Origin: Ruficoccus sp. ZRK36
Lineage (GTDB): Bacteria; Verrucomicrobiota; Verrucomicrobiia; Opitutales; Cerasicoccaceae
DNA length: 64,000 nt
Direction: 5' to 3'
NCBI RefSeq assembly: GCF_019603315.1
Contig: NZ_CP080649.1
Coordinates: 945,501 to 1,009,500, forward strand
In this document: in pieces, positions 1,961 to 63,611 of the stretch
How positions within the stretch are numbered: the stretch's first letter is position 1
How the letters are laid out: each line of letters starts with the position of its first letter
Position numbers and translations under genes: made by a program
The notes under the pieces: generated by a model
Database searches by the model: none
What the model was told of the DNA's origin: nothing
The model's input: the letters and a program-made list of their open reading frames with translations, nothing else

Positions 1961-2026
1961 GAATGGATTACCTGGTATGAGAGGGATTAATCGTTTGGTG
2001 AGAGAAAATGGGTCGTGATCCGCGTT

Positions 2027-2917: not shown

Positions 2918-2929
2918 ACGGAGGGGAGG

Positions 2930-3916: not shown

Positions 3917-3937
3917 GAAAAGGGTCTGTGAGAGGTC

Positions 3938-4321
3938 TTATTGAGACACGATAAAGGAGGTGACAAGGATCGGCTCGTCGTCAACTTCAATCGCGGCTGT
4001 GTAGTCGCCCGGCTTTTGGAAGGGCACATTCTTCAGCTGGTTGATCAAGTGGATGCGATGCAGCGGGCTTTTCGACTCAAAGGGCCGCTCCACGGACATA
4101 AGGGGTGCCTCACCGGGCAGGCCCAGGCTGAGCTGCAGCCGGTGCTCGCCGATGCTGACATCTGCCAGGCTGACGAACCACACCATGTGCGGGTGCATCA
4201 TCGGATACTCCTGAGAGCGCAGATTGGAGAACACGCCCAGCAGGGTATGCTTACCGGTGGAGGGGTCGATATGGACGCCGTCGCAGGTCGCAAAGATCAG
4301 CAGTTGTGGCTTCGATTGCAT
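3938..4321 (-). CDS. DUF6941-family small protein
   Basis: A cytoplasmic protein of 127 residues with no signal peptide or membrane segment. The opening 'QLLIFATCDGVHIDPSTGKHTLLGVFSNL', a central 'WFVSLADVSIGEHRLQL' beta pattern and the C-terminal 'PGDYTAAIEVDDEPILVTSFIV' fit the DUF6941 family, small all-beta proteins of unknown function common in diverse bacteria. It sits between the TolQ-like gene (118-base gap) and the first kinase gene (21-base gap). No catalytic residues can be named. Confidence 0.7.
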   Translation of the reverse strand: MQSKPQLLIFATCDGVHIDPSTGKHTLLGVFSNLRSQEYPMMHPHMVWFVSLADVSIGEHRLQLSLGLPGEAPLMSVERPFESKSPLHRIHLINQLKNVPFQKPGDYTAAIEVDDEPILVTSFIVSQ

Positions 4322-4439
4322 GTGGGGGATACGCTGACACCCGCTCCCGCGAACCGCAACGACGAAAGCGGCTGCTGGGTGGCGCTGTTCTCCCGGCTGG
4401 CCCTCTTATCGAGATGGCATTGCCGCTAGGTAAAGCCGT

Positions 4440-5168: not shown

Positions 5169-5171
5169 AGT

Positions 5172-6071: not shown

Positions 6072-8965
6072 GGTGTTACCTCCACTGCGCTGGATGAGTC
6101 GGTGGTGTTTGGGGCCAGCTTGGTCCGCAAGTCGTCGAGCAGGGCTTGGGCGGGGGAGTGCTCGGGGGTGTCTTCCAGTCGAGGGTCGAGCATCATCTCT
6201 TCGAGCGTGCGTCGGGAGGCTTTCAAGTCGCCGAGTTGATAAAATATATTGGCGCTATGCCAATAGGCGCGCGCGATCAGACCAGGCCACGCACGGTAAA
6301 CGGTGTAGACGCGCTGGTCGCAGGCGATGGCTTCTTCGAGGTTGCCACGCGCCTCGGCGCAGGCGGCGATCATAAGTAATGCCTCGGCCTTATCCCGGCC
6401 CCGCATGAGCGGTGACTGTAGCGATTTTTTCAATACGTTTTCGGCTGCGTTTGTCTCGTTGTCCGAAATCAGTATATCGGCGTGTAGGAGCGCTGCCTGC
6501 GGGGCGTTATTGTCATAAGGCGTTTCCGCCTCGAAGCGTTTGAGCCACTTGATGGCTTGCTCGTTGTCGCCCTGGTCCGCTGTCAGCTTCGCCATGCCGT
6601 AGAAGGCTGATCCGCTACGGGGGCTACGCGGGAAGTGCTCAAGCTGGTAGGTGAAGTACTCGGTGGCGGAGGGGAGCCTCTCCTTGGCGAGCAGGCTTCC
6701 CAGCGCGGAGAGTCCATCAGCGTCGAGGCGCTCCAGAGGGACCTGTCCCATGGTTTCGTAGAGCACGGCGTCTGCCCGATCATCACGCTTGTCGCGGCGA
6801 TAGATGCGCGCCAGGTAAAGCGCGTAGCGTGAGGCCCGCGTGAGCTCACCGCGCTTCAGGGCGTTTTCGCGCTGAGCCTCCAGCCAGTGGGTGTATGACT
6901 CGGCGCGTAGCAGGCCAGCGGAGGCGGTGTTGTTTTCCTCCAGCTTCAAGTCGTCTTGTCGGGCTCGTGTATAGAGTGATTCCAGTGCTTGTAGTAACAG
7001 GCTCGTATCCCCGGCTTGCGTGTCGTTTCCGGTGCGCGCAAGGGCATCCATGAACTGCGGGAACCCCGCCGCCGGATCGCCTTGTTGCGCGTGAGCCCAC
7101 CCGACCCAGTATAACGCCTCGGCCAGACGTGGGCGGGGGCTGTCTGGCGTGTCGTTGGCATAGGCTTCGAAGTGCGCAATGAGTTTGTCGTAATTTTCCA
7201 ATACGCGGTAAATTTTGCCTGTCTGGAAAACGGCGTATGGGTAAAGCGTTCCAGCCTCTGGGCCGACCTGGGTGAACTGATCCGCTGCGGAATCGAGTTC
7301 GCCGAGCCCCATGAGGGTGTCTCCCAGCAGGACTCGAGCCTGCGCTGTGTATGGGCTGCTGGGGTATTTTAGAAGATGATTTTTAAGGGCTTCTTTTGCT
7401 CCTGCGTAGTCTCGCATCGAGTACAGGGTGGCGGCGCGGCGGTAGGCGGTCTCGCCCTCCAGCTCCGTGCCAAGCGTGTCCGGGGTGAGTGCGTCAAAGG
7501 CGGCGAGAGCGTCCGGGTAGTTGTATTCAAAAAAGTATGACAGCCCGATCCAGAGCCGGGCGCGCAGCACCAACTCGTCGTCAGGGAAATTATCAATGAG
7601 AGCGCTGAAGGTGTCGCGAGCAGCGACGTAGTCCTGGTTCAGGGCGAGCGCATAGCCGAGGCGAAATCTCCACCGTGGCTGTCGGGGATCGTCCGGGTAG
7701 GTGTCTATAAGCCAGTATAGGTCATCGATAGCCTCTGTGTATTTGCCCTGCCGTAGCTGGGTTTCAACTATGAGGTAGTATATGGTCGTCAATCGGGGGC
7801 CGACTGGGTGGGCGCCGATAAAGCGGTGCGCTCGGATGAGGGCGAGATTCCAGTCTTCGCGTGCCATGGCGCAAAGGATCCAGCGATAGTGGGCTTGCTC
7901 CCGAAGTGCCTGCGGCAGTGCTTCGTCTGTTGCTACAGCTCCGAATAGCAGCCCCGCCTCACGGCTCCGCCCTGCTCGGAGGAAGGCGTCCCCGAGTTTG
8001 AGCTGCCAGGCTGGAGTGTAGTTATCCATGGATACGAGGTCGTCGAGCTCGGCTTCCACCTTATCGATGATTCCGGAAAAATACTCCTCCCAGAAGGCTG
8101 CGGTCTGGATGCCCTCCGGGTTACGGCGTGTGCGCTCGGTGCGGATGCGCTCCAACTGTGCGAGGCGCTCGCGCTGAAGCTCGATTAATTGCTGATACGG
8201 GGGGACGTTGCGGTAGGCGAGGATGGCCTCCGTGTATTTGCCCTCACGGGCGAGTGCATCGCCTGCCCGCAGGCTGGCAAAGGCGAGCATGGCCAGCTCG
8301 GGCATGGTGGTGACGGCCCACGGCTCGCTTAGGAGAATCTCGCTTGCGCGGGTGTCCTCGCCGTTCGCCTGGGCGGCCTGGACGGCACGCAGCCGGGCCT
8401 GGGCCCGCAGGGTGGGCGGGACGCGTGGATCGGCGGCAAAGGCGAGCAGGCTGGTGATGCCCGCTTCGATTTCGCCCTGGGAAAAGTCCAGTTCGGCCTC
8501 GCGCAGGACGCTGATCAGGGCCTCGGGGCGCTCAGGGAAACGCTCGCGGTAGGCGCGGTAGGCCTCGGAGGCGCGGGCGTTTTCACCGAGTGCCTGGCAG
8601 GCCTGCGCGAGCCCGAAAAGCACATACGCGGCCTGCGTGTCGTCCTCGGGATAGCGTTCGAGAAAAGTTTCGTAGAGTTCGGCAGCGCGGGCATGGTCCC
8701 CGTTGATGCGGCAGGCATGGGCCCAGACCGGGAGCAGTTGCTGCTCGATTTTCTGATAGGCGGGCTCGCTCGCGTAGTTTTTTTCCAGATACGCAAAGCC
8801 CTCGGCGGCGCGTGCGTAGTCAGCCTCCTCAAAGGCGGTGACGGCTTCCTGCAGCGTGGCTTGCAGCCCCTGTTCACGCGCAATCAACTCGGCCTGCAGC
8901 CCGGCTGGAATGATGGCAAGCAGTAGGCAGAGGGCACAGAGAAGGACTGTGCGCGAGCGTAACAC
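6068..8965 (-). CDS. Large exported tetratricopeptide-repeat protein
   Basis: A 965-residue protein with a signal peptide ('VLLCALCLLLAIIPAGLQAEL'), then TPR-type helical repeats along nearly its full length. Examples are 'AVTAFEEADYARAAEGFAYLEKNY', 'YETFLERYPEDDTQAAYVLFGLA' and 'AKEALKNHLLKYPSSPYTAQARVLLGD'. Several repeats resemble the YbgF/CpoB and BamD type found in periplasmic scaffolds. The context (VWA, DUF4175 and TolQ genes) suggests a periplasmic scaffold of an envelope complex. The start lies 53 bases after the DUF4159 stop, and the stop overlaps the next gene. Confidence 0.85.
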   Translation of the reverse strand: MLRSRTVLLCALCLLLAIIPAGLQAELIAREQGLQATLQEAVTAFEEADYARAAEGFAYLEKNYASEPAYQKIEQQLLPVWAHACRINGDHARAAELYETFLERYPEDDTQAAYVLFGLAQACQALGENARASEAYRAYRERFPERPEALISVLREAELDFSQGEIEAGITSLLAFAADPRVPPTLRAQARLRAVQAAQANGEDTRASEILLSEPWAVTTMPELAMLAFASLRAGDALAREGKYTEAILAYRNVPPYQQLIELQRERLAQLERIRTERTRRNPEGIQTAAFWEEYFSGIIDKVEAELDDLVSMDNYTPAWQLKLGDAFLRAGRSREAGLLFGAVATDEALPQALREQAHYRWILCAMAREDWNLALIRAHRFIGAHPVGPRLTTIYYLIVETQLRQGKYTEAIDDLYWLIDTYPDDPRQPRWRFRLGYALALNQDYVAARDTFSALIDNFPDDELVLRARLWIGLSYFFEYNYPDALAAFDALTPDTLGTELEGETAYRRAATLYSMRDYAGAKEALKNHLLKYPSSPYTAQARVLLGDTLMGLGELDSAADQFTQVGPEAGTLYPYAVFQTGKIYRVLENYDKLIAHFEAYANDTPDSPRPRLAEALYWVGWAHAQQGDPAAGFPQFMDALARTGNDTQAGDTSLLLQALESLYTRARQDDLKLEENNTASAGLLRAESYTHWLEAQRENALKRGELTRASRYALYLARIYRRDKRDDRADAVLYETMGQVPLERLDADGLSALGSLLAKERLPSATEYFTYQLEHFPRSPRSGSAFYGMAKLTADQGDNEQAIKWLKRFEAETPYDNNAPQAALLHADILISDNETNAAENVLKKSLQSPLMRGRDKAEALLMIAACAEARGNLEEAIACDQRVYTVYRAWPGLIARAYWHSANIFYQLGDLKASRRTLEEMMLDPRLEDTPEHSPAQALLDDLRTKLAPNTTDSSSAVEVTP

Positions 8966-9018
8966 AACCCGTGTATTCTCAGCAGCGTCGGCTCAGGCGG
9001 CAAGCGGGAAAGCACCCG

Positions 9019-10059
9019 CTACTGCGTATAGGCGTAGACGAAGATGTTGACGCCCAGCTGGGTGTAGAAGCCGTGGGCGTAGTCGCTGATCTCCTGTGTA
9101 TAGTAGTAGCGAAACAGCCGCCAGCTGCCGTCCGGTTCGCTCACCCAGGCGGGCATGGCCTCCTCTTGGGTAAATATCTGGTCCTTGCGGCCGTCTTCAC
9201 GGGTCACCTCAAAGCTCGTGCCCGTGTAGGCCGCATCGGCCAGGCGCTCGTCGATGCCCTCGGCCCCTTCGCGGATGCGGAAGCCGATGAAGGTCGTCCA
9301 CTGCCCGAAGTCATTCTTCCCCCATCCCATGGCCAGGATCGGCATCGCCAGCACGGCCAGGCGGCCGTTGACGGTCAGCCCCATGGCGGCATAGGTGCCC
9401 TGCGGCCACTTTTCGTTGACGACGAAGTCGCGCACAGTGTCGGGCAGGATGGTGGCGTCGGGCAGGCCGGAGTAAAATGCCCGGAAAAGCGGGTGCGAGC
9501 GGGGCAGGGGCAGGAAGGCCTTGTCCGGGTAGATCGAGGAGAAAGCCTCCTGCAGCTCCGGGGTGACGCTCCACTCTGCGAAGCTGTGAAACTGGCCGTA
9601 CTGGGTGCTGTCGCGTAGAAACGAGGGCGTGATGCCCGCGTCGATATAGATGAAGCCGCCCCGGTCGAGGTACGCGTTGATGGCTTCTTTCTCGCTCTCG
9701 GAGAGCGTCCAGTCCGCCCGGTCGGCGTAGTTTACATAGATGAAGGGGTGCTCGAAAATGCGGGGGTCGTCAAAGGTCTGGATGACGAGCGGGTCCGGGT
9801 CGAGGGTGAGCGTGGTTTTGTCGTTGATCTCCTCCAGCAGGCTGGTGAGCCCTCCGGGATAGTTACGGCGCAGGGTATCGCCCTGGATGAGCTGGATGAC
9901 CTGCACCGGGTCCGGCGGAGTCAGCTCCGTGGGTTGGGGCGCAGGGGGTGTCGACTCGGGCTCTGCGAGAGTGGTCGGCTGTGCCGACACATTCAGAGCG
10001 GCTGCGAGCATGATGCAGCCGGAGATGAGCCAGTGGCGGATGTTGTGCGGCGTTTTCAC
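9019..10059 (-). CDS. DUF4159-domain exported protein
   Basis: A 346-residue protein with a signal peptide ('WLISGCIMLAAALNVSA'), a proline-rich linker and a DUF4159 domain. This is recognised from 'NYPGGLTSLLEEINDKTTL', 'FIYVNYADRADWTLSESEKEAINAYLDRGGFIYIDAG' and 'IYPDKAFLPLPRSHPLFRAFY'. The domain has a glutamine-amidotransferase-like (flavodoxin) fold and habitually occurs in MoxR/BatA-type operons of Planctomycetes, Verrucomicrobia and related phyla. Start and upstream HEAT-gene stop overlap (10056-10059). Function is unknown; a periplasmic role alongside the VWA/GATase-like protein is inferred. Confidence 0.85.
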   Translation of the reverse strand: MKTPHNIRHWLISGCIMLAAALNVSAQPTTLAEPESTPPAPQPTELTPPDPVQVIQLIQGDTLRRNYPGGLTSLLEEINDKTTLTLDPDPLVIQTFDDPRIFEHPFIYVNYADRADWTLSESEKEAINAYLDRGGFIYIDAGITPSFLRDSTQYGQFHSFAEWSVTPELQEAFSSIYPDKAFLPLPRSHPLFRAFYSGLPDATILPDTVRDFVVNEKWPQGTYAAMGLTVNGRLAVLAMPILAMGWGKNDFGQWTTFIGFRIREGAEGIDERLADAAYTGTSFEVTREDGRKDQIFTQEEAMPAWVSEPDGSWRLFRYYYTQEISDYAHGFYTQLGVNIFVYAYTQ

Positions 10060-11609
10060 AGGCGCTCCTGACGTTGGAAGATAGTGGGGTCCTCCAGGTA
10101 GAGGCGGATGAGTGGAGCCAGCGGCGTGTCCGGCTCGCTCTGCAGGAGCTGGCGGAGGGCCTCGGTACCGCCGGGCATCTGGGTGCGCATGATCAGCTCA
10201 GCGGCGCTGCGCTGGATCATGAGGTCTTCGTCATTGAGCGAGGCGAGGAGGATGTCCTGCCAGCCGGGCAGCTGCCGCCGGGCGATCTCGCGCAGACTCT
10301 GCTGGCGGATGGCGGTCTGGTCATCCAGTAATAGGTCGAGTAAAAGCTCCGTGGCAATGTCGTCCGGCATGGTTACGCTCATCGTGGCGAGGCTCTGGCG
10401 TACCTCTGGGTGGCGGCTGGTGAGCATAGCCTCCCGTAGCTCCGGTGGCATATTGCCATGGCGGCGCTCGTAGTACTTGAGGACGACGGTGCGTACCTGC
10501 TCAGAGGGATCGGCGATAAAGATCAGCACCTGCTCGGGCCGTTGCTGGGCGTAGCCCATGTCGAAGAACAGGTCGACGGCTTCGCGGCGCAGGAGCGGGT
10601 CATCCAGGCCGGTGAGTGCCTCGATGTGGCCGGGGACTTCACCTGAGTGCATACGCATCATCTGGAGAAAACGCTGCGCTTGCTCCTGCTTGAGGCGGTC
10701 CTCATTCAGCCGCGCATAGAGCTTCTCAAATGTGGCGTCCGTGCCGAGCGCGCGGAAGCGCGCGAGCATGGCCTCGGCGGCGATCTCGTCGTCTTCGTCT
10801 TCGCTTAGCATGCGCAGCAGCTCAAGCTGGGCGGTGCTGGGTCTGGGGGGCAGCTCGCGGGAGAGGCGGAGGCGCTCGGCGCGATTGCCGTTTTCTATCC
10901 AGCGCTGAGCCTCGCGGGTAAAGGCGTCCGGCTCAGCAAAGCGTGCGGCGAGGCCGACGGCTTCGAGGCGCACCTGTGGGTCTTCGTCGCCCATCAGCGC
11001 GATAAAGGTCTCTCCCGGTACCGGCAGGTTGAGATAGAAATGGTTGGTCAACATGTTGCGCCGGACGATGACATCCTCATCCAGATAGGCCTCGACCAGG
11101 GTCTGACGAACATCGTCGGGGATCACAACACGGACGCCCGGCCTCAGGGCCTCTGTGGCGGCGCGGATAGCCATCATCGGCTGAATGGCGGTGGAGGCCG
11201 AGCGGCGCAGCTCGACATCTTCGTCCCCGACCAGGCGCAGCACCGGTACGATTGCTTCGGCGGGGGCGGCCCGGTTCCACTCCATGACGGAGACCATGGC
11301 AGCCCGGCGCACACGTGTGCTCGGGTCCTCCAGCGCTTTGATCACCGCCTCGCGTGCCTGAGCGCTGTCGTATTTCCCCAGCAGCATGACGGCTCCGGCG
11401 CGGTACTCGCTGTTGTCGGATTTGAGGTCCTCCAGCGCGCGCTCGATGGTGGCTTTTTCCTCGGGGCTGAGCCGCGGCTCGGGCATGAGGCTGGGGGGAA
11501 ACAGATTGCGGGGGATGCCGGATGGCCGGTTCTGGGCGGACAGCGGGAGGGCTGCCGCGGCCAGGGCGACCGTGGAGAGAAGGACTTTGATGGAGGAGGT
11601 CAAAGGCAT
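10056..11609 (-). CDS. Exported HEAT-repeat protein
   Basis: The chosen ATG at 11609 forms an ATGA overlap with the stop of the preceding VWA gene; an upstream start at 11642 would reach into that gene. The product (about 517 residues) has a signal peptide ('KVLLSTVALAAAALPLSA') and then tandem HEAT/armadillo-like helical pairs, such as 'YRAGAVMLLGKYDSAQAREAVIKALEDPSTRVRRAAMVSV' and 'PSEQVRTVVLKYYERRHGNMPPELREAMLTSRHPEVRQSLATM'. HEAT solenoids bind other proteins, so this is probably an assembly or scaffold partner in the envelope complex. No enzymatic motif is seen. Confidence 0.85.
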   Translation of the reverse strand: MPLTSSIKVLLSTVALAAAALPLSAQNRPSGIPRNLFPPSLMPEPRLSPEEKATIERALEDLKSDNSEYRAGAVMLLGKYDSAQAREAVIKALEDPSTRVRRAAMVSVMEWNRAAPAEAIVPVLRLVGDEDVELRRSASTAIQPMMAIRAATEALRPGVRVVIPDDVRQTLVEAYLDEDVIVRRNMLTNHFYLNLPVPGETFIALMGDEDPQVRLEAVGLAARFAEPDAFTREAQRWIENGNRAERLRLSRELPPRPSTAQLELLRMLSEDEDDEIAAEAMLARFRALGTDATFEKLYARLNEDRLKQEQAQRFLQMMRMHSGEVPGHIEALTGLDDPLLRREAVDLFFDMGYAQQRPEQVLIFIADPSEQVRTVVLKYYERRHGNMPPELREAMLTSRHPEVRQSLATMSVTMPDDIATELLLDLLLDDQTAIRQQSLREIARRQLPGWQDILLASLNDEDLMIQRSAAELIMRTQMPGGTEALRQLLQSEPDTPLAPLIRLYLEDPTIFQRQERL

Positions 11610-13786
11610 CAGTTCAGGCCTGTCCTGCGGCGTAGTATCCACTCGATACCGACGGTGAGGACGAGGATCAAGGTAAAGGTAAGATTGCGGGTCCAGTAGA
11701 GGCGCGTCTCAAGCATCGGGGTATCTGCCCTTAGCGGCACGGTGTCCAGGCTGTCCACCTCCCGCCAGGAAACATACTCCCCACCGGTGACACGGGCCAG
11801 GTCGCGCAGTTCCCGCTCACGGAAGGCCAGGTCGGCGTTTTCACGGCCGAGGTGCGCCCCGGCGAACCACGCTTCCTGGCGCAGTTCTTCGCCATCCGGG
11901 AAGCTCACCCGATACTCGACATGGGCCTCACCGGGAGTGTCGAGTTGGCTTGTGCCCTGATAGCGTCCGGGCAGGCTGGGGTCGGGTACGAGGTTAACAG
12001 GCGGCCCCGGTTCGCCACTGGCGGGTGTCATCACGGCGCTCACGCGGGCGTTTTCGGCGGGCAGGAAGTCCGGTCCGCGCACGTCCACATCGAGGGCGAG
12101 CGGCTCGTCCACGGGGACGATGCGGCCCTGCAGGGGCATTTCCAGCCGTGGCTTACCGCCGCTGCCGAGCCAGCCCAGCAGGTAGCGCCAGAACAGCTCA
12201 TGCTGGCGCAGGCCGTGCTCACTGCTGAGCCGCCAGCGCCAGGTCGAGGAGGTGCCGAGGTAGGCCACCCGCCCGGCCCCGTAAGCGTGGAGCGTGAGCA
12301 AGGGCTGGTCTAGCTGGGCAGTCGATAGAACCGTGCGTGCCCCGCGCGAAAGCTCGCGGCCGACATAGGCGGTGCGACCACCGGGCAGGAAAAGCGGGGG
12401 CGGGCGAAACAGAGTGCCACCGGCCAGCGCGTCAAAGAGCGGCTCCGGGCTGAGCTTGAGCGGGGCCTGTGCCGGACGGATCAGCGTCTCGGTTTCACGG
12501 ACAGGCAGCAGGTAGCGCAGCTCGGCGGGGAGATTATCCGGCGGGCCAAAGAAAACGACACCTCCGCCGCGTCGGGTGAGGAAATCGAGCAAGGCCTGCC
12601 GCTCATCGGCGTTCATTTCGCTAACGACGGCGGTCTCGACGATCAGCACGCTGTGGTCGACCAGTCTGTTTTTGATCCAGGCATAGCCCAGGTTCTCCTC
12701 GTCGGGTGCGTCTTCAAAGCCCAGCGCGGCGAAGCGCTCGGCGTTGAGCCGGATGAGCGCGTGCAGCTCCCAGTCGGGGTCCTGCCGGAGGGCTTCGCGC
12801 AGAAAGCGGTAGGTGTCGTTGAGGTGCGTGCTCAGGTAGAGGGCCTTCATCACGCGCGGCTCGGCGACCTCGGTCGCGGCAAAGGCGAGGTCGTCACTCT
12901 GGTTGCGGTCACCGGGAATGGTTTCCACGATGCGCGCCCGGTAGCTGTGGAAGCCTGAGCGCTCGGGACGGGCTGTGGCCTCGATGCGTACAGTGGCGCC
13001 GGGCTGCAGCGTCACGTCCTGGCGGGTGAGCACGGTGTCGCCGTCAGCGATTTCGACGGTGGTGGAGACGGATTGGCTAAAGGTACTGGTCAGGGCGGCT
13101 TCCAGCTCCAGCGGCTCGCCGACGAGCGGCTCGGCGGTGCGGACAGTCAGCTCGACAGCTGCGTTTCCGCCCTCGGAGGCGTCCCCGACTCCAACCACAC
13201 TGATGGGGATACCAGCCTCGCGGTAGGCGCGGGCGGCGTCCATCAGTGGCTCGCCACGCAGGGAGATGCCGTCGCTCAGGAGAACGGCAGCCGACAGCGG
13301 TCCCTGGCCGCTGTTGTGGTTCAGGGTCTCGCGCAGGCTATCCCCGATCGCGGTTTGGCCACCCTCCAGAGAAAGGCCGGAGGTTGGCAGGGGGCTGAGG
13401 CGTTCGCTGAAGGCATAGGTGTCGAGCTGTCCGGCTTGGGCATCAAGGCGTGCGCGGAGGTTATCCGGGGTGGCTTCGTCGACCTGGCTGGCGGTGAACT
13501 CGATCCGCGCGGTGCCGTCGAGATCGCGCGTATGCATGGAGCCGGAGGCGTCGGCCAGCACTGCGATACGCAGGCCAGCCGGGTCCGGATCCTGCCGGGT
13601 GAGGTAGGGGTTCAGTGCCAGCAGGCAAATCATCAGCACGGCCAGCAGGCGCAGGACGAGGCTCGCCCACCACAGACCGCGTGGCATGTCGCCACCCTGC
13701 CGGCGGGCCAGCCGCAGGAGGGCGGCGGTCAGCAGCACGGCAGCCACTGCAATGGCCACGGGTGGGATGGGTGTCTCGAAGGGCAT
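11609..13786 (-). CDS. VWA-domain membrane protein with GATase-like C-terminal part
   Basis: A 725-residue membrane protein. Two N-terminal helices (about residues 8-25 and 42-60) precede a von Willebrand A domain with an intact MIDAS start ('IAVLADASGSMHTRD') and 'AAVLLSDGISLRGE'. A beta-rich region follows, then a class-I glutamine-amidotransferase-like fold ('DHSVLIVETAVVSEMNADERQALLDFLTRRGGGVVFFG'). A C-terminal helix ('LTFTLILVLTVGIEWILRR') closes the protein. It overlaps both neighbours by ATGA, which implies tight translational coupling. Such proteins sit beside BatA-type proteins in aerotolerance-like operons; the ligand is unknown. Confidence 0.88.
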   Translation of the reverse strand: MPFETPIPPVAIAVAAVLLTAALLRLARRQGGDMPRGLWWASLVLRLLAVLMICLLALNPYLTRQDPDPAGLRIAVLADASGSMHTRDLDGTARIEFTASQVDEATPDNLRARLDAQAGQLDTYAFSERLSPLPTSGLSLEGGQTAIGDSLRETLNHNSGQGPLSAAVLLSDGISLRGEPLMDAARAYREAGIPISVVGVGDASEGGNAAVELTVRTAEPLVGEPLELEAALTSTFSQSVSTTVEIADGDTVLTRQDVTLQPGATVRIEATARPERSGFHSYRARIVETIPGDRNQSDDLAFAATEVAEPRVMKALYLSTHLNDTYRFLREALRQDPDWELHALIRLNAERFAALGFEDAPDEENLGYAWIKNRLVDHSVLIVETAVVSEMNADERQALLDFLTRRGGGVVFFGPPDNLPAELRYLLPVRETETLIRPAQAPLKLSPEPLFDALAGGTLFRPPPLFLPGGRTAYVGRELSRGARTVLSTAQLDQPLLTLHAYGAGRVAYLGTSSTWRWRLSSEHGLRQHELFWRYLLGWLGSGGKPRLEMPLQGRIVPVDEPLALDVDVRGPDFLPAENARVSAVMTPASGEPGPPVNLVPDPSLPGRYQGTSQLDTPGEAHVEYRVSFPDGEELRQEAWFAGAHLGRENADLAFRERELRDLARVTGGEYVSWREVDSLDTVPLRADTPMLETRLYWTRNLTFTLILVLTVGIEWILRRRTGLN

Positions 13787-26940: not shown

Positions 26941-27018
26941 CGGGGCGTAGCGCAGCCTGGCTAGCGCATCTGCTTTGGGAGCAGAGGGTCGCAGGTTCGA
27001 ATCCTGTCGCCCCGACCA
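26941..27018 (+). tRNA. tRNA-Pro (anticodon UGG), CCA encoded
   Basis: The acceptor stem CGGGGCG (26941-26947) pairs with CGCCCCG (27008-27014), followed by discriminator A and an encoded CCA. The anticodon arm CTGCT-TTGGGAG-CAG places TGG as anticodon, and the T-arm contains GGTTCGAATCC. All arms fold normally. It marks the junction between GC-rich core DNA and the accessory region downstream, a common integration site for mobile elements. Confidence 0.96.
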
Positions 27019-56725: not shown

Positions 56726-59137
56726 GTGGACACGGTCACCTATGACAATGCGGGACGACTGAAAACCCGTACGGGTGGACGAGGTATCGTGACGACTTAT
56801 GGCTATGACCCTCTCTACGGCTATCAGACCAGTATTTCCTATGGAGATGGTGTCACGGCCTCAGTCACCTACTCAGAGTTTGATCGTGCAGGCCGAGCAG
56901 GCCAGGTCAGCGATGCGTCAGGGACGCGTATACTTGGCTTTGATGCCGGAAGGGTTGTGTCTGAGACATATTCGGCGAGTGGCGAGCCTTGGGATGGTTT
57001 TGTGGTTAATCACGACTACGATGATGCTTCGCGCCTGAGTAGCGTCTCGGTGTCCGACGGGGCCAGTAGTATGCACGCCGTTGAGTATGGCTATGATGCC
57101 AACACGGGACGTTTGGGTACGGTCAGTTTTGCTCAGGGGGGAGAGACTCACACGGCTACCTACGGCTACAAGGAGGGGACCAGCCAGATTGACTCTGTGG
57201 TGCAGACTCAGGGTTCTGCGGAAGTGCTTGCTGTCGGGAAAGATTACGATAATCTTGGACGCTTAAGGAGCCTGAGCTATGGGCAGCCCCATCAGGAGCT
57301 TGGAATGACCTACGCCTACAACATGGCCAATCAGCGGACCTACGCGACTCGCGGTAATGGCGAGTACTGGCGTTACGGCTACGATGCACTCGGGCAGGTG
57401 GTCAGCGCCACGAAGTCTCTACCCGGCGGACAGATTGTTCCTGGTTACACCTTTAGTTACGGCTTTGATGACATCGGCAACCGCTCCGCGGCGGGGCGCG
57501 ATGGAAATGCCGCTCGACGGCAGCAGTACTATGCCGGCACGGATGCGACCGGTGTCAATGGTGCCAATGCACTTAATCAATATGGCAGCCGTTCGGTGCC
57601 GCGTGTACTGGGCGTGCTCGGGATGGCCAACGCTAATGCGACCGTCACCGCAAACGCTCAGGCCGCTACCCGTACGGGGGATTATTATCAGGCGTTGCTG
57701 GATTACTCTTCGGGGGAGGCCCCAGATGCTGCCCGCTATGAGGACATCCTGCTTGTGGGCACCTATGCCGGGCAGGGTGCCAATGGCACCGATGCTGTGG
57801 CCGAGGTCGAGACTCGGGCCTATCTGCCGCCCAATCCGGAAAACTTCACCTACGACGACGATGGGAATCTGAAGTCTGACTCGCGCTGGCTCTACGCCTG
57901 GGACGGTGAAAATCGCCTCGTTACGCTGGAGCCGACCGCCACAGCCATTTCCCTCGGGCTACCCGGCCAGAAGCTCACCTTCACCTATGACTCGCAGGGG
58001 CGCCGAGTGAAGAAGGAGGTCTACGACTGGAGCGATACGACGTCGACCTGGGAAACCTCTCCTGCGGCAACTACTGCCTTCTTGTATGATGACTGGAATC
58101 TCTTGGCGGAGCTGGACTATGATGTTTCGGGGGTGCAGGTAGGCTCTCGCACCTATGCCTGGGGGATCGACCTCTCCGGATCGCTACAGGGCGCAGGCGG
58201 CGTCGGTGGCCTGCTCGCCGTGAACGTGTCGAACGGCTCCTCTGCGGGCACCTATTATCCCGCCTACGACGGCAACGGCAATGTCATGGCCTATGTGGAC
58301 GCCGCCGGTGGCGAAGTCGCTGCGCGGTTCGAGTATGGCCCCTTCGGTGAGCCCCTGCGTGCGACCGGTAGCGCCGCCGATGCTCTCACATACCGCTTCT
58401 CCACTAAATACACCGACCCCGAAACAGGCCTTCTCTACTACGGCTACCGCTACTACTCTCCCGGAATGGGGCGTTGGCTCTCAAGGGACCCGATTGAGGA
58501 AGAGGGTGGGATGAATTTATACGTGTTCGTTGGGAATAATGGAGTGAATGGATGGGACCAACTCGGAATGCTAACAGATGAAGCCGTTGCTGCTGCTCTA
58601 CTGCGGCACTGGGCCGAGCCTAACGGTAATGATACATTTGGACGCTTTGGTGGGTATTGGGGAGAATATATGAAGAGCCTCGGTGCGATTCGAGTCGAAG
58701 CGCAGAGTGCAATGCAAAAAGAAGCCCAAAAGGCTTGGGATGGGAATCGTAGCAGTGGGCAGTATAGCTCAGGTACGATACATATAAATTTAAACAGATC
58801 ATTCTCCCTCACGGCAACTCTAAACGGAATTGACTATGTAATACGCGGAGGATATGAAATTGATCGAATTAACTGCGCAATAACAATGAGGCATAATTTT
58901 CATACTATTACAGATGTTTTTGATCCACATGAAGCTGATAATCCAGAGTCAAGCTGGGCTGACTGGGTCGGTCGTAGATTGCGGAGCGGTGGCAGTGTAT
59001 ATCCTTCAGGATTTAAAACATACCAAGATTTTAATATTATAATAGTTTGGAACTCCGATGATATTAAGTTTCCTGTATCGAATGGAAAGGTACTTACGGA
59101 TGGCGGTACAAAAGCTTGGCCGTTTGCTGCGAATTAA
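56726..59137 (+). CDS. N-terminally truncated RHS-repeat protein with divergent C-terminal tip
   Basis: An 803-residue RHS protein. YD-type repeats ('YDNAGRLKTRTGG', 'YGYDANTGRLGTVSF', 'YNMANQRTYATRG') run to the hyperconserved core 'GNVMAYVDAAGGEVAARFEYGPFGEP...YGYRYYSPGMGRWLSRDPIEEEGG' (about 510-585). After 'WDQLGM' (about 614) comes a ~190-residue tip of unknown family with a sharp shift to AT-rich DNA. There is no signal peptide and the first repeat begins mid-unit; an in-frame stop lies only 33 bases upstream (56690), so the 5' part is missing. The GTG start is formal. Tips of this kind are often toxins delivered by RHS shells. Confidence 0.85.
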   Translation: MDTVTYDNAGRLKTRTGGRGIVTTYGYDPLYGYQTSISYGDGVTASVTYSEFDRAGRAGQVSDASGTRILGFDAGRVVSETYSASGEPWDGFVVNHDYDDASRLSSVSVSDGASSMHAVEYGYDANTGRLGTVSFAQGGETHTATYGYKEGTSQIDSVVQTQGSAEVLAVGKDYDNLGRLRSLSYGQPHQELGMTYAYNMANQRTYATRGNGEYWRYGYDALGQVVSATKSLPGGQIVPGYTFSYGFDDIGNRSAAGRDGNAARRQQYYAGTDATGVNGANALNQYGSRSVPRVLGVLGMANANATVTANAQAATRTGDYYQALLDYSSGEAPDAARYEDILLVGTYAGQGANGTDAVAEVETRAYLPPNPENFTYDDDGNLKSDSRWLYAWDGENRLVTLEPTATAISLGLPGQKLTFTYDSQGRRVKKEVYDWSDTTSTWETSPAATTAFLYDDWNLLAELDYDVSGVQVGSRTYAWGIDLSGSLQGAGGVGGLLAVNVSNGSSAGTYYPAYDGNGNVMAYVDAAGGEVAARFEYGPFGEPLRATGSAADALTYRFSTKYTDPETGLLYYGYRYYSPGMGRWLSRDPIEEEGGMNLYVFVGNNGVNGWDQLGMLTDEAVAAALLRHWAEPNGNDTFGRFGGYWGEYMKSLGAIRVEAQSAMQKEAQKAWDGNRSSGQYSSGTIHINLNRSFSLTATLNGIDYVIRGGYEIDRINCAITMRHNFHTITDVFDPHEADNPESSWADWVGRRLRSGGSVYPSGFKTYQDFNIIIVWNSDDIKFPVSNGKVLTDGGTKAWPFAAN

Positions 59138-59603
59138 AATAGATGCAAGGCCTTGTGCCGCCGTTCTATGTTTGATTCTGTGTGGTTGCTTGGCTCAGCG
59201 CGTGAGCGATGTTGCACAAGTTACACGCGTTTTGGAACATAAATTTAATTTTGAATTTCCAAAGGAAACCAAGATTTTAAATGCGGATCTTTTCTACGAA
59301 AAACGAAGCTCATCATGTTCAGTCTATATGCATCTTAAGATGAGCGAAGATGTCTTTAGTGACTTTAAAATAAAGCTTGGGGATCGAATGATTTCATTGG
59401 GTGAAGCTGGATGGGGTAAACAGAAGATTAGATCGAGCTTGGATTGGTGGGATGCTCATTTGATTAAGCATGAACGCCTATATGAAGTAGACTCTATTGA
59501 ATATTCTAAAGTGAAAAATTCTCGCCTTTACTTTTCCACAAGACGTGACAATGAAGACTTTGTTGATATTTATTTATATGCCCAATGGTTCGTGCCTGAA
59601 TAG
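59100..59603 (+). CDS. Lipoprotein overlapping the RHS gene; candidate immunity protein
   Basis: The ATG at 59100, preceded by GGAAAGG, gives about 167 residues. The N-terminus ends in a lipobox ('AAVLCLILCGC', Cys in LCGC), so it is a lipoprotein. The mature part is AT-rich, mixed alpha/beta, with no known family. The start overlaps the RHS stop by 38 bases and the DNA shares the RHS tip's low GC. That is the layout of RHS-toxin/immunity pairs, but no immunity family is recognised, so the role is inferred. Confidence 0.62.
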   Translation: MAVQKLGRLLRIKIDARPCAAVLCLILCGCLAQRVSDVAQVTRVLEHKFNFEFPKETKILNADLFYEKRSSSCSVYMHLKMSEDVFSDFKIKLGDRMISLGEAGWGKQKIRSSLDWWDAHLIKHERLYEVDSIEYSKVKNSRLYFSTRRDNEDFVDIYLYAQWFVPE

Positions 59604-59678
59604 AGCCGATCCGATTAATGTGACTGACATTGTGCTGATGTTTTCCTATAGATATGTCTTTTGGTTTTATTGATTTAT

Positions 59679-60344
59679 ATGGGTTGCTGTTGCTATATTC
59701 TAGGAGTTGTTGCTGGCATATCGCTGTTACCCTTGCTCACGCATGCGGGGCTTCGGTGGGAGCATACGCGTTTGACTGTGCCGGTGGAGGTGGGGCAGGA
59801 GCAAGCCGTGGGGGTATATGCCTTTAAGAATACCGGGAATGAGCCAGTGACGATTCTGGATATCCACTCCAACTGCGGCTGCACGGTGCCTGAGCTGGAA
59901 AAAAAGACTTACGAGCCGGGCGAATCCGGCGAGATCAAGGCCATCTTTACCCTCGGTGACCGTACCGGACCACAACGTAAGGTGCTGACGGTGAACGCAG
60001 ATATGCCTGGGCACCCGATCACCCGTCTTGTCCTGGAGGCCAATATCCCCAAGTTGATGACCATCGCGCCCAGAATTCTCATCTGGCGAAAAGGGGCCGC
60101 CAACGAGAATAAAGAGATCTATGTAACGACGGATCCGGCGAATAGCATCTCAATCGAAAAAAATGCCGATGGCTACGATGCTCCGTGGTATGAGCTGGTG
60201 CCGGACGAGGATAAACCCGGGCGCTACGTCGTGCTCGTGCACCCCGAGAGCACTGAAGTCAGCAAGAAGCTGAAATTCCTGATCGTCGTGACTACCCCCG
60301 AGGGGAAGCAGGTAAAAAACGGTGCCTTTATCCTCGTGCGTTGA
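59679..60344 (+). CDS. DUF1573-domain membrane-anchored protein
   Basis: The ATG at 59679 gives 221 residues; an upstream TTG at 59661 is less likely. A signal/anchor ('CCCYILGVVAGISLLPLLTHAG') precedes the DUF1573 domain, recognised by 'VGVYAFKNTGNEPVTILDIHSNCGCTVPELEKKTYEPGESGEIKAIFTLGDRTGPQRKVLTVNADM'. It is a beta-sandwich (Ig-like, ASPM-SPD-2-Hydin) domain with a typical Cys pair in NCGCT. GC content is again core-like. It probably acts in the periplasm; the partner is unknown. Confidence 0.88.
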   Translation: MGCCCYILGVVAGISLLPLLTHAGLRWEHTRLTVPVEVGQEQAVGVYAFKNTGNEPVTILDIHSNCGCTVPELEKKTYEPGESGEIKAIFTLGDRTGPQRKVLTVNADMPGHPITRLVLEANIPKLMTIAPRILIWRKGAANENKEIYVTTDPANSISIEKNADGYDAPWYELVPDEDKPGRYVVLVHPESTEVSKKLKFLIVVTTPEGKQVKNGAFILVR

Positions 60345-60462
60345 CCCTCGCGGGCGATACGTTGGCTATCGTTTCTGAGCTTGGATAAAGGATACGATGA
60401 ACTACAGAGTTCGCTACCTGCTCTGACATATCGTTTCTAATTGTCCTCGAACTCTCAGCTAA

Positions 60463-60515
60463 AAGAAAAGCCCCCGTGCCCAGCGCGAGAAGGCGGGACG
60501 GCAGGGGCTTTTCTT
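60463..60515. terminator. Bidirectional terminator between DUF1573 and DUF932 genes
   Basis: AAGAAAAGCCCC (60463-60474) pairs with GGGGCTTTTCTT (60504-60515) to form a 12-bp outer stem with further pairing inside. The arms carry A/T runs on both sides, so it works for either strand. It lies between two convergent genes. Confidence 0.85.
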
Positions 60516-60517
60516 GG

Positions 60518-60535
60518 TGTAAACCATGGTTGACA
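60518..60535. repeat. Dispersed 18-bp palindrome, copy 4 (one mismatch)
   Basis: TGTAAACCATGGTTGACA differs from the perfect copies at one position. It starts three bases after the terminator, in the gap before the DUF932 gene's stop. Confidence 0.7.
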
Positions 60536-60604
60536 TGATGGGTGATTGCACTGCTGAGAGCGTCCCTACTTGCGCAGGATGGGTGGCAGTCTCCATCGTC
60601 CCGC

Positions 60605-61375
60605 TCAATTCAGGCCGAGGGCATTATCGAGGAGCAGGTGGAGGCGGTGGGTGCGGGTGGGCAGGAGGTTGAGGTTGCCTTTGAGGGCCTCGGTGAAGGC
60701 GTTCTGAAGGCTCCAGGCGGTACGGGGATGGAAGGCCTCGTGCCGGGGTTGACGCCACTCGTGCAGGACCTTGGGGATGGTGCTGTTGGCCATGACACCG
60801 GCATCGACGGCGCGGACAATCAGGTCGTGAGCCGTGCGATCCTGAAGCGTGATGCGACGGTAGTAATCCACCCGGCGGTCATGTCGGTCCCAGTGATGCC
60901 TGAGTCCTGACACCGCCTCCTTGGCAAGACTGGGGAGATCGTGCAGGATGCGCGGAGTGTGCTTACGGGCCAGCTGGATTTCTCCTGAGAACGAGAGATT
61001 ATCGCAAACTAAAACCTGGCTCCCGGCAACGACTCCGGCGGAGAAACGCTGGTCGTGGCTGTTGCGGACGCCGACCACATAGGTGTATTCAAGTCCCGAT
61101 ACGGGGGCGTCGACTTCGAGTAGCCCGAAGTAGCGGGCGTTGTCATGGGTGAGGCCGTGGGCTTGGCCTGCGACGGTAAAGCCTTGTTCGAGCAAGGTAC
61201 GTTCGACAACTTGTAACAACCCGATGTGCGGGATCGGCTTCCAGGTGGAGGTTGCCCGGGGAGTCTTGATCTGGGCAAGGTCGCACCGGCTGACGGCATG
61301 GCTGCCACAGTGCAGGAGCAGGTTGCAGCGTTGGGGAGCTGCGGGGGAGACAGGTTCAATGGTGTCTGTTATCAT
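60605..61375 (-). CDS. DUF932-like mobile-element protein
   Basis: A 256-residue soluble protein. Blocks such as 'EYTYVVGVRNSHDQRFSAGVVAGSQVLVCDNLSFSGEIQLARKHT' and 'RTAHDLIVRAVDAGVMANSTIPKVLHEWRQPRHEAFHPRTAWSLQNAFTEALKGN' resemble DUF932-type proteins carried by phages, plasmids and integrative elements. Function is unknown. The family assignment is by eye. The start is 30 bases from a 13-bp inverted repeat (61405-61438), possibly its operator. It stands alone, as the terminator at 61581 ends the operon upstream. Confidence 0.68.
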   Translation of the reverse strand: MITDTIEPVSPAAPQRCNLLLHCGSHAVSRCDLAQIKTPRATSTWKPIPHIGLLQVVERTLLEQGFTVAGQAHGLTHDNARYFGLLEVDAPVSGLEYTYVVGVRNSHDQRFSAGVVAGSQVLVCDNLSFSGEIQLARKHTPRILHDLPSLAKEAVSGLRHHWDRHDRRVDYYRRITLQDRTAHDLIVRAVDAGVMANSTIPKVLHEWRQPRHEAFHPRTAWSLQNAFTEALKGNLNLLPTRTHRLHLLLDNALGLN

Positions 61376-61404
61376 GGTGTTGATGCGTTGAGGTTGTGGT
61401 TTTG

Positions 61405-61438
61405 AAAACTACGAAAAACGTCCTGTTTTCGTAGTTTT
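61405..61438. promoter_or_regulatory. 13-bp perfect inverted repeat upstream of DUF932 gene
   Basis: AAAACTACGAAAA (61405-61417) and TTTTCGTAGTTTT (61426-61438) form a perfect inverted repeat with an 8-base spacer, just upstream of the minus-strand DUF932 start at 61375. It could be an operator, a recombination site, or a hairpin in the transcript. Confidence 0.6.
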
Positions 61439-61580
61439 GGGAAAATGCTGATTCGCCTGTATGCTCGATAAATGCAGGCCCGAGAGGCAGTGGTGTCGTA
61501 ATCGGGTATGGGAGTGCCCAGTCCCTGTTACCGCACCGAATGGGCAGGTGGGATAGCCTCCGATGTTTGGGAAAAGTAAA

Positions 61581-61610
61581 AGCCCCGCCTCGTGTGATCG
61601 AGGCGGGGCT
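61581..61610 (-). terminator. Terminator of the nuclease operon
   Basis: AGCCCCGCCTCG (61581-61592), loop of 6, CGAGGCGGGGCT (61599-61610): a perfect 12-bp stem. On the minus strand it is followed by TTTTACTTTTCCC. It lies 27 bases beyond the stop of the last gene of the operon (61638). Confidence 0.9.
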
Positions 61611-61637
61611 GTATTGGCCGGGTATGACAGATCAGGC

Positions 61638-61874
61638 TCAGCGGTAGCGCTCACGGTCCCGTTCGTACTCGGGGTATTCCGGGACGAAGGGCGAACGTCT
61701 CACCGCTCCCACGGCATAACCGATGGATCCGATGAGGATGGCCACGGAGATGACCAGGAACGGGCTGAGCGTTTCCTTGGCCTCGTTGACGGCCCCGATG
61801 GCCACCGGCCCCACCAGCGTGCCGACGCTGTAGGCAGTCAGCGCGATGAGCACGAGCTTAAGGACGGCATTCAT
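61638..61874 (-). CDS. Small membrane protein of the nuclease operon
   Basis: A 78-residue protein with two likely membrane helices ('VLKLVLIALTAYSVGTLVGPVAIG', 'LSPFLVISVAILIGSIGYAVGAV') and a basic, Tyr/Arg-rich tail ('SPFVPEYPEYERDRERYR'). Its start overlaps the stop of the upstream small membrane gene by 17 bases. No family is recognised. Confidence 0.6.
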   Translation of the reverse strand: MNAVLKLVLIALTAYSVGTLVGPVAIGAVNEAKETLSPFLVISVAILIGSIGYAVGAVRRSPFVPEYPEYERDRERYR

Positions 61875-62130
61875 GGTGAGGCAGGCTGTTGTGTTTGCGT
61901 CTGTTTGAGCGCGGCGGGCTCAGGTGCTTATACCTGGCGGCCCGCACGATACTGCTGCCCCAGATGAGGGAACAGGCGACCGAGCAGCCCCCGACCCAGT
62001 ACAGGGCATGGGCCAGTGGCAGGAGGACGGGTTGCTCGACCGGAGGAGGGGAGGGTGGCTCGTCGTGCTCGTTGAGCATAAAAATGCCCGCGCCCACGCT
62101 GATCACGGTGATGAGGATGGCCTGGATCAT
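61858..62130 (-). CDS. Second small membrane protein of the nuclease operon
   Basis: The ATG at 62130 is chosen because it forms an ATGA overlap with the nuclease stop. The product has 90 residues with two membrane helices ('IQAILITVISVGAGIFML', 'LAHALYWVGGCSVACSLIWGSSIV') and a Pro/Ser-rich linker. Its stop overlaps the next gene's start. Partner and role are unknown; tandem small membrane proteins often belong to phage- or ICE-borne modules. Confidence 0.6.
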   Translation of the reverse strand: MIQAILITVISVGAGIFMLNEHDEPPSPPPVEQPVLLPLAHALYWVGGCSVACSLIWGSSIVRAARYKHLSPPRSNRRKHNSLPHHECRP

Positions 62131-62948
62131 CGCGCCCCTCCTGTCCATTTTGCGCACTGCGAGCGGTAGCTGCACCAGGCACAGTGCATGCCCGGTTGCG
62201 GATGAAACCGCTCATGGTAAATGCCGTCCACCGCCGCGCAGGCGATGTCCAGCACACGCTGTTTCTCTCGTTCGCTCGCCGGTTCCAACCGGTGCACGAT
62301 AACCTTCGGGACCTTGGTCTTGACGAGGAAAACCAGTTCGCGTCCCTCGACCTTTTCGCTCGTGGCCGACTCGATCAACAGTTGGTAGAGCGTGAGCTGT
62401 ACCTCGTGCTGGAAGGCTTCGAGCTGGACGTTTGGGGTGCTCGCGCAGGTCTTGTAATCGACCGGCACATTGCCCACCCGAACCAGGTCAATGTAGCCCA
62501 AAACCGGGCTGGGAAGCACCGGCAGGTCCTCCTCCAGTTGGACTTCGACACCGAGTGGAAGCTCTGTCATCTGCCCGTGCTCGGAGTCCAGATAGGCCTC
62601 GACCATCTTGATGCCTTTGTCGTGGTTGGTCTGACGCGTATCCATATCCGGATACACAGAGGTCTCCTCCGGCGCATTAAACGCCTGTGTGAAGGCCTCG
62701 ATAACCGTCGACCGCTCGTGGCACTCCCCACGCCAGCGAGCGCGGTGAAAGTGCTGCAAGGCGGCGTGGACAGCCTTACCCAGGTGCAGGCTGGGGGAGA
62801 CAGGCTCGGGCAACTTCAGGACCTTCTTGTACCAGAACTTCAGCGGACAGGTCAGGTAGAGTTTGACCGTGCTGGCCGAGATGTGGTCAAGCAAGCCATC
62901 GGTGGAGGGCTGCTGGCCGTTGCGATCGTGTTCCAGCGGCTGAATCAT
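62127..62948 (-). CDS. PD-(D/E)XK nuclease, RecB/Cas4-like
   Basis: A 273-residue nuclease of the PDDEXK_1 (RecB C-terminal/Cas4-like) type. The first cysteine is in 'LYLTCPLKFWYKK', and the C-terminal iron-sulfur cluster residues are in 'PGMHCAWCSYRSQC'. The catalytic block is 'YIDLVRVGNVPVDYKTC' (D in IDL, D and K in VDYK), with an upstream H in 'LHLGKAVHAALQHFH'. It should be an Fe-S exonuclease. No CRISPR array or other cas gene is near, so a phage- or ICE-type DNA-processing role is more likely. It is coupled by ATGA overlaps on both sides. Confidence 0.88.
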   Translation of the reverse strand: MIQPLEHDRNGQQPSTDGLLDHISASTVKLYLTCPLKFWYKKVLKLPEPVSPSLHLGKAVHAALQHFHRARWRGECHERSTVIEAFTQAFNAPEETSVYPDMDTRQTNHDKGIKMVEAYLDSEHGQMTELPLGVEVQLEEDLPVLPSPVLGYIDLVRVGNVPVDYKTCASTPNVQLEAFQHEVQLTLYQLLIESATSEKVEGRELVFLVKTKVPKVIVHRLEPASEREKQRVLDIACAAVDGIYHERFHPQPGMHCAWCSYRSQCAKWTGGAR

Positions 62949-63421
62949 GACCGGTTCCTCCCCTTGGCAGAGCCGTAGGTGCCGATCAGTTCGTCGATCA
63001 GCCCGGAGGCCTGCATCTTGTTCAGGCGGGGGAGGGGCGTCTGGAAGCGGCTTTGGGCTAACTCTTCCATCGCATCAGTTGTGATGCCGTGCTCCTTCAT
63101 CATCCGCTCGATCAGGGCCTGTTGTTTGGGCGAACAAGCCCATCGGTGCGAACTCTGTCGGATGAAGGCCGGGCGGTTGGGGTCTGCCCGTAGTGGCGAG
63201 CGTGTCGGCTCGTGTATCGATGAGCCGGATACAGGCAAAAAACCCGTCTCCTGGATGTCCCGGTCCACCGCCTCCTGCAATTGCTGGTACAGGTGCGTGC
63301 TGGCCTGCTGGATGTGGGCGAGGTCGTTAACCTCCGTGCGGACCGTGATCGAGTACTGGTGCGAAGAGAACTGCGGCAGGCCCAGCTTCTTCGAGTAGTT
63401 GGCTTCGAGGGTGATAGCCAT
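62945..63421 (-). CDS. Conserved mobile-element hypothetical protein
   Basis: A 158-residue soluble protein. The opening 'ITLEANYSKKLGLPQFSSHQYSITVRTEVNDLAHIQQASTHLYQQLQEAVDRDIQETGF' is a pattern I associate with small proteins on phages and plasmids, without a name. A C-terminal helical part ('CSPKQQALIERMMKEHGITTDAMEELAQSRF') may bind DNA or a partner. It is the first gene of the nuclease operon. Upstream lie a leader terminator hairpin and an inverted repeat. Confidence 0.6.
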   Translation of the reverse strand: MAITLEANYSKKLGLPQFSSHQYSITVRTEVNDLAHIQQASTHLYQQLQEAVDRDIQETGFLPVSGSSIHEPTRSPLRADPNRPAFIRQSSHRWACSPKQQALIERMMKEHGITTDAMEELAQSRFQTPLPRLNKMQASGLIDELIGTYGSAKGRNRS

Positions 63422-63455
63422 GAGGAATCCTTTCGAATGTGACCGTGTGGGTACG

Positions 63456-63491
63456 AAAAAGCCCGGCGACGGGTCGGTGTCTGCCGGGCTT
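63456..63491 (-). terminator. Leader terminator/attenuator of the nuclease operon
   Basis: On the minus strand, AAGCCCGGC - 15-base loop - GCCGGGCTT (arms 63491-63483 and 63467-63459) is followed by more T residues (63458-63456). It lies 35 bases before the first codon at 63421, i.e. inside the likely leader. That suggests attenuation or antitermination, unless the promoter lies between the hairpin and the gene. Confidence 0.65.
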
Positions 63492-63492
63492 C

Positions 63493-63517
63493 TGATAGCG
63501 AGATCGTCCCGCTATCA
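63493..63517. promoter_or_regulatory. 8-bp inverted repeat in divergent intergenic region
   Basis: TGATAGCG (63493-63500) and CGCTATCA (63510-63517), spacer 9 bases, lie next to the leader terminator between divergent genes at 63421 and 63612. It is a possible operator for a dimeric regulator. Confidence 0.5.
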
Positions 63518-63611
63518 CGGATATATAACGCAGGTCGAGGGCTTTTTGCGCAGGGGAGGGGGAGTGGATTCTCATTGCGGTTCTCGCCGCTGCTCTGCAT
63601 TTTTATCGTGC

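Follow-up and report, generated by a model that had tools for sequence, protein, structure and literature searches.

What can an RHS gene be for when its N-terminal half is missing, its last part departs in base composition from the rest, and a lipoprotein gene overlaps its end? Such a locus is present in Ruficoccus sp. ZRK36, within the stretch of 64,000 nucleotides that we analysed (contig NZ_CP080649.1, positions 945,501 to 1,009,500; hereafter the window). With a probability of roughly 0.6, we read it as an orphan RHS tip cassette, which would encode a colicin M-like toxin attacking lipid II in the periplasm together with an envelope-anchored immunity lipoprotein, the pair being stored for recombination. 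Colicin M halts cell-wall building in rival bacteria.

Anatomy and edges of the cassette

The locus is composed of the following elements.

56726..58567, + strand: truncated, orphan RHS/YD-repeat core (PF05593 and TIGR03696 matches; alignment with L023 1476-7700)
58568..59137, + strand: C-terminal tip, a predicted colicin M-like toxin domain (AlphaFold2 model, fold search, the relatives L007 and L008, motifs)
59100..59603, + strand: candidate immunity lipoprotein of 167 aa (lipobox LCGC, mature from Cys30; model pLDDT 81)
58492..59726, + strand: cassette, 41.3% GC, with limits set by the paralogous RHS locus L020
59661..60344, + strand: gene for a DUF1573 protein (PF07610), 3' of RHS tip cassettes here and at L020 and L023

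The ORF listing gives an RHS frame of 803 codons at 56726-59137, starting with GTG. RHS repeats (PF05593) were recovered in its product by a Pfam search, and an NCBIfam search placed the Rhs_assc_core model TIGR03696 above its cut-off at residues 537-615 (E 1.1e-22). Considering that the core motif DPIEEEGG has its last base at 58511, and that the core model extends about 20 residues beyond it, the tip proper comprises approximately residues 615-803. In an RHS cassette the core precedes a C-terminal domain that varies, and L020 and L023 similarly pair related cores with different tips. As full-length reference we used an RHS protein of 2074 aa from G005, a genome of the same taxonomic family (L023 1476-7700). 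The window frame aligns with it only from residue 1241 (59% identity, 620 residues), and thus the upstream part, some 1,240 N-terminal residues, is absent; no signal peptide was seen by eye in the truncated frame. The lipoprotein gene starts with the ATG at 59100, 38 bases within the RHS frame, and is preceded by the purine-rich GGAAAGG. The preliminary description of this DNA, which had proposed an RHS core ending at DPIEEEGG, an AT-rich tip thereafter, the loss of the upstream RHS part and an overlapping lipoprotein gene, is hence confirmed in these observations.

The GC content is 59.4% in the core, 43.8% in the tip, 39.3% in the lipoprotein gene and 54.2% in the DUF1573 gene, with GC3 values of 65.3%, 33.9%, 35.7% and 66.2%, respectively. 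The 1,235 bases of 58492-59726 are essentially the AT-richest segment of that length in the window, as 20 of 62,766 starts yield an equal or lower GC content. The edges were moreover set independently of composition by L020, a paralogous RHS locus of the same genome: DNA identity with the window ends at 58491, within the core (90.6%), and restarts at 59727 (92.6%), and between these shared flanks L020 has other tips and other partner genes. The previously claimed return to core composition at DUF1573 therefore holds as a return, whereas the edge itself is located not at the start of the gene but about 65 bases within its frame.

DUF1573-like genes are found directly 3' of RHS tip cassettes at three loci (window 59661-60344, L020 9721-10440 and L023 12607-13296). 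A fourth one, at L152 14591-15040, is preceded by small genes, possibly orphan immunity genes, and no RHS core was found at that locus. At L020 8823-9603, one RHS tip is followed by two overlapping lipoprotein genes that are similar by eye, possibly a duplicated immunity gene.

Predicted fold and motifs of the tip

No significant match to the tip was detected in Pfam, NCBIfam or PHROGs (stray rows E 0.11-0.29), and neither the tip nor the lipoprotein had a match worth naming among PDB sequences. A profile search of these residues had been proposed beforehand with an eye to a known non-toxic domain, and no such domain emerged from the three libraries.

We then turned to structure. The AlphaFold2 model of the tip, generated from a three-sequence alignment, reached a pLDDT of 66.7 and a pTM of 0.61, with the other four models at 58.5 down to 31.0. 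Foldseek returned colicin M-family bacteriocins at all of ranks 1-12 (probability 0.77-1.00, best E 1.1e-3), and the probability drops to 0.10 at rank 13. In VIA-align, pectocin M1 came out on top (Z 7.4, 144 residues), ranks 1-9 consisted of ColM-family bacteriocins and BtpeA, a T6SS effector of B. fragilis (Z 5.7-7.4), and the first other row had a Z of 4.8; colicin M itself scored 4.2-4.6. No Foldseek E fell below 0.001 and every VIA-align Z stayed below 8, and with values this modest the weight of the fold evidence rests on the uniformity of the match list. On this basis the tip has the predicted fold of the colicin M catalytic domain. The suggestion of an unfamiliar toxin-like domain, with a membrane-anchored partner that would suit protection against a periplasmic activity, is thereby supported, the predicted fold being that of a periplasm-acting antibacterial toxin family, and fold search appears able to name RHS tips that profile libraries leave blank.

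Sequence comparison with colicin M was carried out in several ways. Colicin_M (PF14859) gave no match to the tip in Pfam up to E 10, and none in the own genome at E 0.1. With a ColM HMM, 150, 18 and 232 of 1,000 shuffles equalled or exceeded the scores of the three tips, respectively, and several other RHS tips scored above them; hhalign of the tip against ColM yielded E 0.12, a score matched by 26 of 300 column shuffles. With the profile-profile and HMM scores within the shuffle range, ColM homology is not supported by sequence, and we therefore name the tip colicin M-like rather than a member of PF14859. Our best reading is that it would work like colicin M while being filed outside that family.

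Two motifs were then compared.

58607-58627, + strand: H-W-x3-N-G motif (motif comparison)
58913-58924, + strand: DVFD motif, model residues 116-119 (motif comparison)

According to the accessible text of PMC5821083, the colicin M signature is DXYDX5HR, and degenerate versions of it are on record. The full signature is present in none of the three tips: the window tip reads D-V-F-D-PHEAD-N-P, with half of it kept, L007 reads D-K-F-D-PHEAD-H-P, and L008 has DRAD, the aromatic residue missing. Both motif aspartates, at the positions of Asp116 and Asp119, are invariant in all eight aligned sequences (three tips and five ColM domains), and the motif His-Arg is replaced by Asn-Pro in the window and by His-Pro in L007. 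A pattern of [HN]-aromatic-x3-[NQ]G followed by D-x-aromatic-D, picked after viewing the alignment, is present in two of the three tips and all five ColM domains, and in 0 of 56 other RHS tips and 7 of 6,000 shuffles.

The motif data also bear on a different action of the same fold, where another envelope lipid carrier would be bound or cleaved, or where binding would be noncatalytic, the lipoprotein still serving as immunity. The window tip has no motif His-Arg, and such a reading is congruent with the degenerate motifs and with the pectocin M1 mutant that causes lysis even though its lipid II degradation is abolished, as reported in the available part of PMC5821083. The retention of both aspartates in all three tips argues against it, however, and we consider it unlikely. 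We regard as improbable that the tip is a periplasmic toxin of unrelated fold with lipoprotein immunity, the colicin M match being an artefact of a weak model. A pLDDT of 67 and the lack of ColM support from Pfam and the ColM HMM are in line with this possibility, but the top 12 of 12 Foldseek rows fall in one family before the sharp drop in probability.

A better-conserved lipid II candidate than the window tip was observed elsewhere in the phylum. An RHS-type protein from another family (L053 1178-2331) has a tip above the Pfam Colicin_M cut-off (E 2.5e-9; E 3.6e-7 against PaeM), and its gene overlaps another of 98 aa, the product of which has a hydrophobic segment at its N-terminus (by eye). 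Thus, the phylum does contain a ColM tip carried by an RHS protein and coupled to a partner that faces the envelope. It is the one PF14859 match over cut-off among 240 genomes of the phylum, and 116 further genomes of its family, some of them counted in the 240 already, had no match at E 0.001.

The lipoprotein and its pairing with the tip

By eye, all three members of the lipoprotein set have a lipobox (LCGC, LGGC and ILGC), and a simple rule detects that of the window member too. The profile search suggested earlier for the 167-aa protein returned no significant family match in Pfam or NCBIfam (stray rows E 0.11-0.29). Its structure model (pLDDT 81.3) consists of a helix, two strands, a helix, a strand, a helix and three strands. 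Foldseek gave a best probability of 0.85 (3lyd, uncharacterised), followed by LpqN at 0.54 and DcrB at 0.47, and VIA-align listed PA1624 (Z 6.9), SciW (5.8-6.1), DcrB (5.4), PsbP (5.3) and Tsi3 (4.0-4.3). Neither method provided a clear fold match; there are hints of a PsbP/DcrB-like fold, too weak to claim.

Relatives of the tip were identified in 3 of 88 related genomes, the own genome counted. An order-wide search of 372 genomes recovered the same three only, and a phylum draw of 387 genomes the own genome and one match in G263, which we rejected as a true copy, being weak and within a gene of another kind. One tip locus was returned by the genome_contigs search, and no relatives were found in the phages, plasmids or viral contigs searched. 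The L007 and L008 tips are 44% (E 3e-42) and 32% (E 1e-24) identical to that of the window; for the lipoproteins, similarity to the window member is 28% (E 1e-16) in L007 and marginal in L008 (E 0.031). In all three loci the lipoprotein gene lies directly 3' of the RHS tip, and by position it is the small downstream gene of an RHS tip cassette, with a predicted immunity role. In the order, a profile built from the three lipoproteins has matches in 4 of the 322 genomes searched: three of the matches are the source loci, all adjoining a tip, and the fourth, a weak one, covers the signal-peptide end of a different lipoprotein, whose gene by eye likewise lies behind an RHS-type tail. In a phylum draw of 327 genomes, it matches the own genome and, weakly, a stretch within an unrelated 273-aa gene. 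A lipoprotein occurring without RHS neighbours had been named as grounds against the pairing, and no convincing copy away from the tip was found in these 322 and 327 genomes. Tip and lipoprotein are inherited as a pair.

The L008 locus is part of L023, where the tip is the last unit of an RHS array (1476-12430). Unit 1 comprises a full-length RHS gene and a small protein, membrane-type by eye, unit 2 an orphan RHS core-tip and another lipoprotein, and unit 3 the window-type tip and lipoprotein; the array ends with a DUF1573-like gene, named from its likeness to that of the window.

These observations reflect on whether the locus has decayed, the truncated RHS gene being debris left in a mobile island and having lost any function. 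The signal peptide and N-terminal half are missing, and identity between the window core and the two full-length RHS proteins inspected in the own genome is only 26%, over some 250-280 residues. The frames of tip and lipoprotein are however intact and overlapping, GGAAAGG is in place before the lipoprotein gene, and the pair is kept in three genomes, rendering decay improbable. An ordinary non-toxic cap beside an unrelated lipoprotein, conceivable as the toxin role of the tip is a prediction, is very improbable in view of the co-occurrence of the two in three loci and of the lack of a convincing lipoprotein without the tip in the genomes searched.

Proposed role and mobile setting

We favor the toxin-immunity cassette. 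The tip shares its predicted fold with the colicin M catalytic domain. Like colicin M, it would most likely attack from the periplasm, its target being lipid II or a related precursor linked to undecaprenyl. The lipoprotein from the overlapping gene may sit on the periplasmic face of a membrane, and there bind and block the toxin. As the truncated carrier is without signal peptide, this gene probably does not give rise to an exported toxin. Rather, the cassette may represent a store, from which recombination via the shared RHS core could shift the tip onto a full-length RHS protein, and the lipoprotein would protect the cell that carries it when relatives deploy the same toxin.

Two further elements concern the mobility of the region.

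60452..63562, no strand assigned: module of DUF932 and PD-(D/E)XK nuclease (repeat comparison)
26967..27018, + strand: last 52 bases of tRNA-Pro, candidate island end (repeat search)

The module recurs at L152, L153 and L154, wholly or for 2-3 kb at 92-95%, and at least partly at L020. Integrase-like genes, different from one another, adjoin three of the copies: those at L152 and L154 (Pfam sub-threshold only) and the window copy, whose neighbour lies just after the last base of the window (by eye; L159 1075-2463). Several such copies with different integrase-like genes resemble a family of integrative elements within one genome. The 52-base tRNA-Pro end has an identical direct repeat about 64.7 kb downstream (G000:C1 1,037,202-1,037,253; L154 12203-12254), adjoining the integrase-like gene of L154, and the two repeats bound a candidate 64.7-kb integrative island containing the RHS cassette. 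Aggregated, the repeated module, the integrase-like genes and the tRNA-Pro repeat indicate that the cassette probably rides in an integrative island.

Genes behind RHS tips across the order

RHS genes are present in 42 of 87 genomes of the order. We surveyed the best 60 RHS cores listed, by E-value, of which 59 were counted, one being without a stop before the end of its stretch; several share a genome or an array, the rows are not independent, and the set includes tips of 10 aa and 32 aa. The gene 3' of the tip looks exported or anchored in 40 of the 59 cases (27 genomes): 13 with a lipobox by a simple rule, some doubtful by eye (L075, L093, L098 and L113), and 27 with a strong N-terminal hydrophobic segment, leaving 19 with neither. 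The mean of the per-genome fractions is 0.65. Controls were drawn from 20 arbitrary regions of nine of the surveyed genomes. Genes following 165 ORFs of at least 350 aa were exported- or anchored-looking in 36 of 153 cases; as this set might include antisense ORFs, the control was repeated with non-overlapping ORFs, yielding 30/130 (lipobox 5, hydrophobic 25, neither 100). Neighbours of at most 240 aa gave 11/67, and neighbours that are themselves accepted ORFs 25/81 (lipobox 5, hydrophobic 20, neither 56). Fisher p values are 6e-9 for 40/59 against 30/130 and 1.7e-5 against 25/81, the latter control being the fairest; the difference is weakest there, yet clear.

The T6SS sheath family VipB/TssC (PF05943), the sole T6SS family searched, gave no match in any of 28 genomes, the own one among them, with E. 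coli matched as positive control. By this search, no sign was found in the genome of the T6SS that a T6SS-delivered Rhs effector presupposes. Three full-length RHS proteins inspected start with an apparent Sec signal peptide (by eye). Together, the envelope-type neighbours, the Sec-like N-termini and the negative VipB search suggest Sec as the export route of RHS proteins in the order, and the envelope as the site of action of many of them. A wider reading, which we hold tentatively and as somewhat doubtful, is that the RHS proteins of the order constitute a T6SS-independent, Sec-exported weapon system aimed mainly at the target envelope. As its toxins would be directed at the envelope, immunity would reside there too, as lipoproteins or single-span proteins, with the window pair as the lipid II branch, combining a ColM-like tip too diverged for profiles and a lipoprotein immunity unlike those in the literature considered here.

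If the toxin-immunity reading is true, colicin M-like toxins gain an RHS-borne branch that is invisible to profile libraries and equipped with lipoprotein immunity. The enrichment of envelope-anchored immunity candidates 3' of RHS tips furthermore provides a testable rule on the site of action of RHS toxins. It would apply to an order rich in RHS genes (42/87 genomes), in which a search of 28 genomes returned no T6SS sheath gene.

Comparison with known systems

Judged by titles and abstract starts, no published description of the window pair was found among the matches listed from the literature on colicin M, Rhs, Verrucomicrobia and immunity lipoproteins. The colicin M-type bacteriocins (ColM, pectocin M1/M2, PaeM and syringacin M; PF14859) share with the window tip the predicted catalytic fold, the order of H-aromatic-x3-N-G and D-x-aromatic-D, and, as expected for the tip, the periplasmic site of action. 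They are however receptor-binding bacteriocins, whereas the tip is mounted on an RHS core and lacks the Pfam match and the motif His-Arg. Their immunity partners are membrane-associated proteins with transmembrane helices in the available text of PMC5821083, in contrast to the lipoprotein of the window. For the described families, Cmi/YebF, PmiA-C and BmiA-B, the table in the accessible part of that source gives a Pfam domain for Cmi alone; the window protein, which has a lipobox, gave no significant Pfam match.

Lipoprotein immunity has precedents. Imm65, which goes with Tox-JAB-1, is the sole lipoprotein in the immunity collection of PMC3482391 to the extent that its text is accessible; it is RHS-linked as the window candidate, but belongs to Bacteroidetes and to a JAB-type toxin. 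According to the available portion of PMC12419801, a polymorphic toxin resembling colicin M has a BamE-like immunity protein anchored in the membrane; the combination of polymorphic toxin and membrane-anchored immunity is one that the window pair is predicted to share. That immunity protein has a two-helix hairpin and three strands, differing from the succession of elements in our lipoprotein model. The same portion has the immunity proteins of Lipocone toxins all as TM proteins or lipoproteins, and some of these lipoproteins could serve a ColM-like toxin.

The closest published system among the matches listed is DUF3289/DUF943, a T6SS effector-immunity pair whose colicin M-like toxin was recognised by structure, as presented in the accessible part of PMC11148199. 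The carrier differs, given that the window genome has no T6SS sheath gene by our search, and neither the window tip nor the lipoprotein has a Pfam match to either family. As that part of the source further states, the effector, tested in the E. coli periplasm together with its immunity protein, is toxic and is neutralised by the latter.
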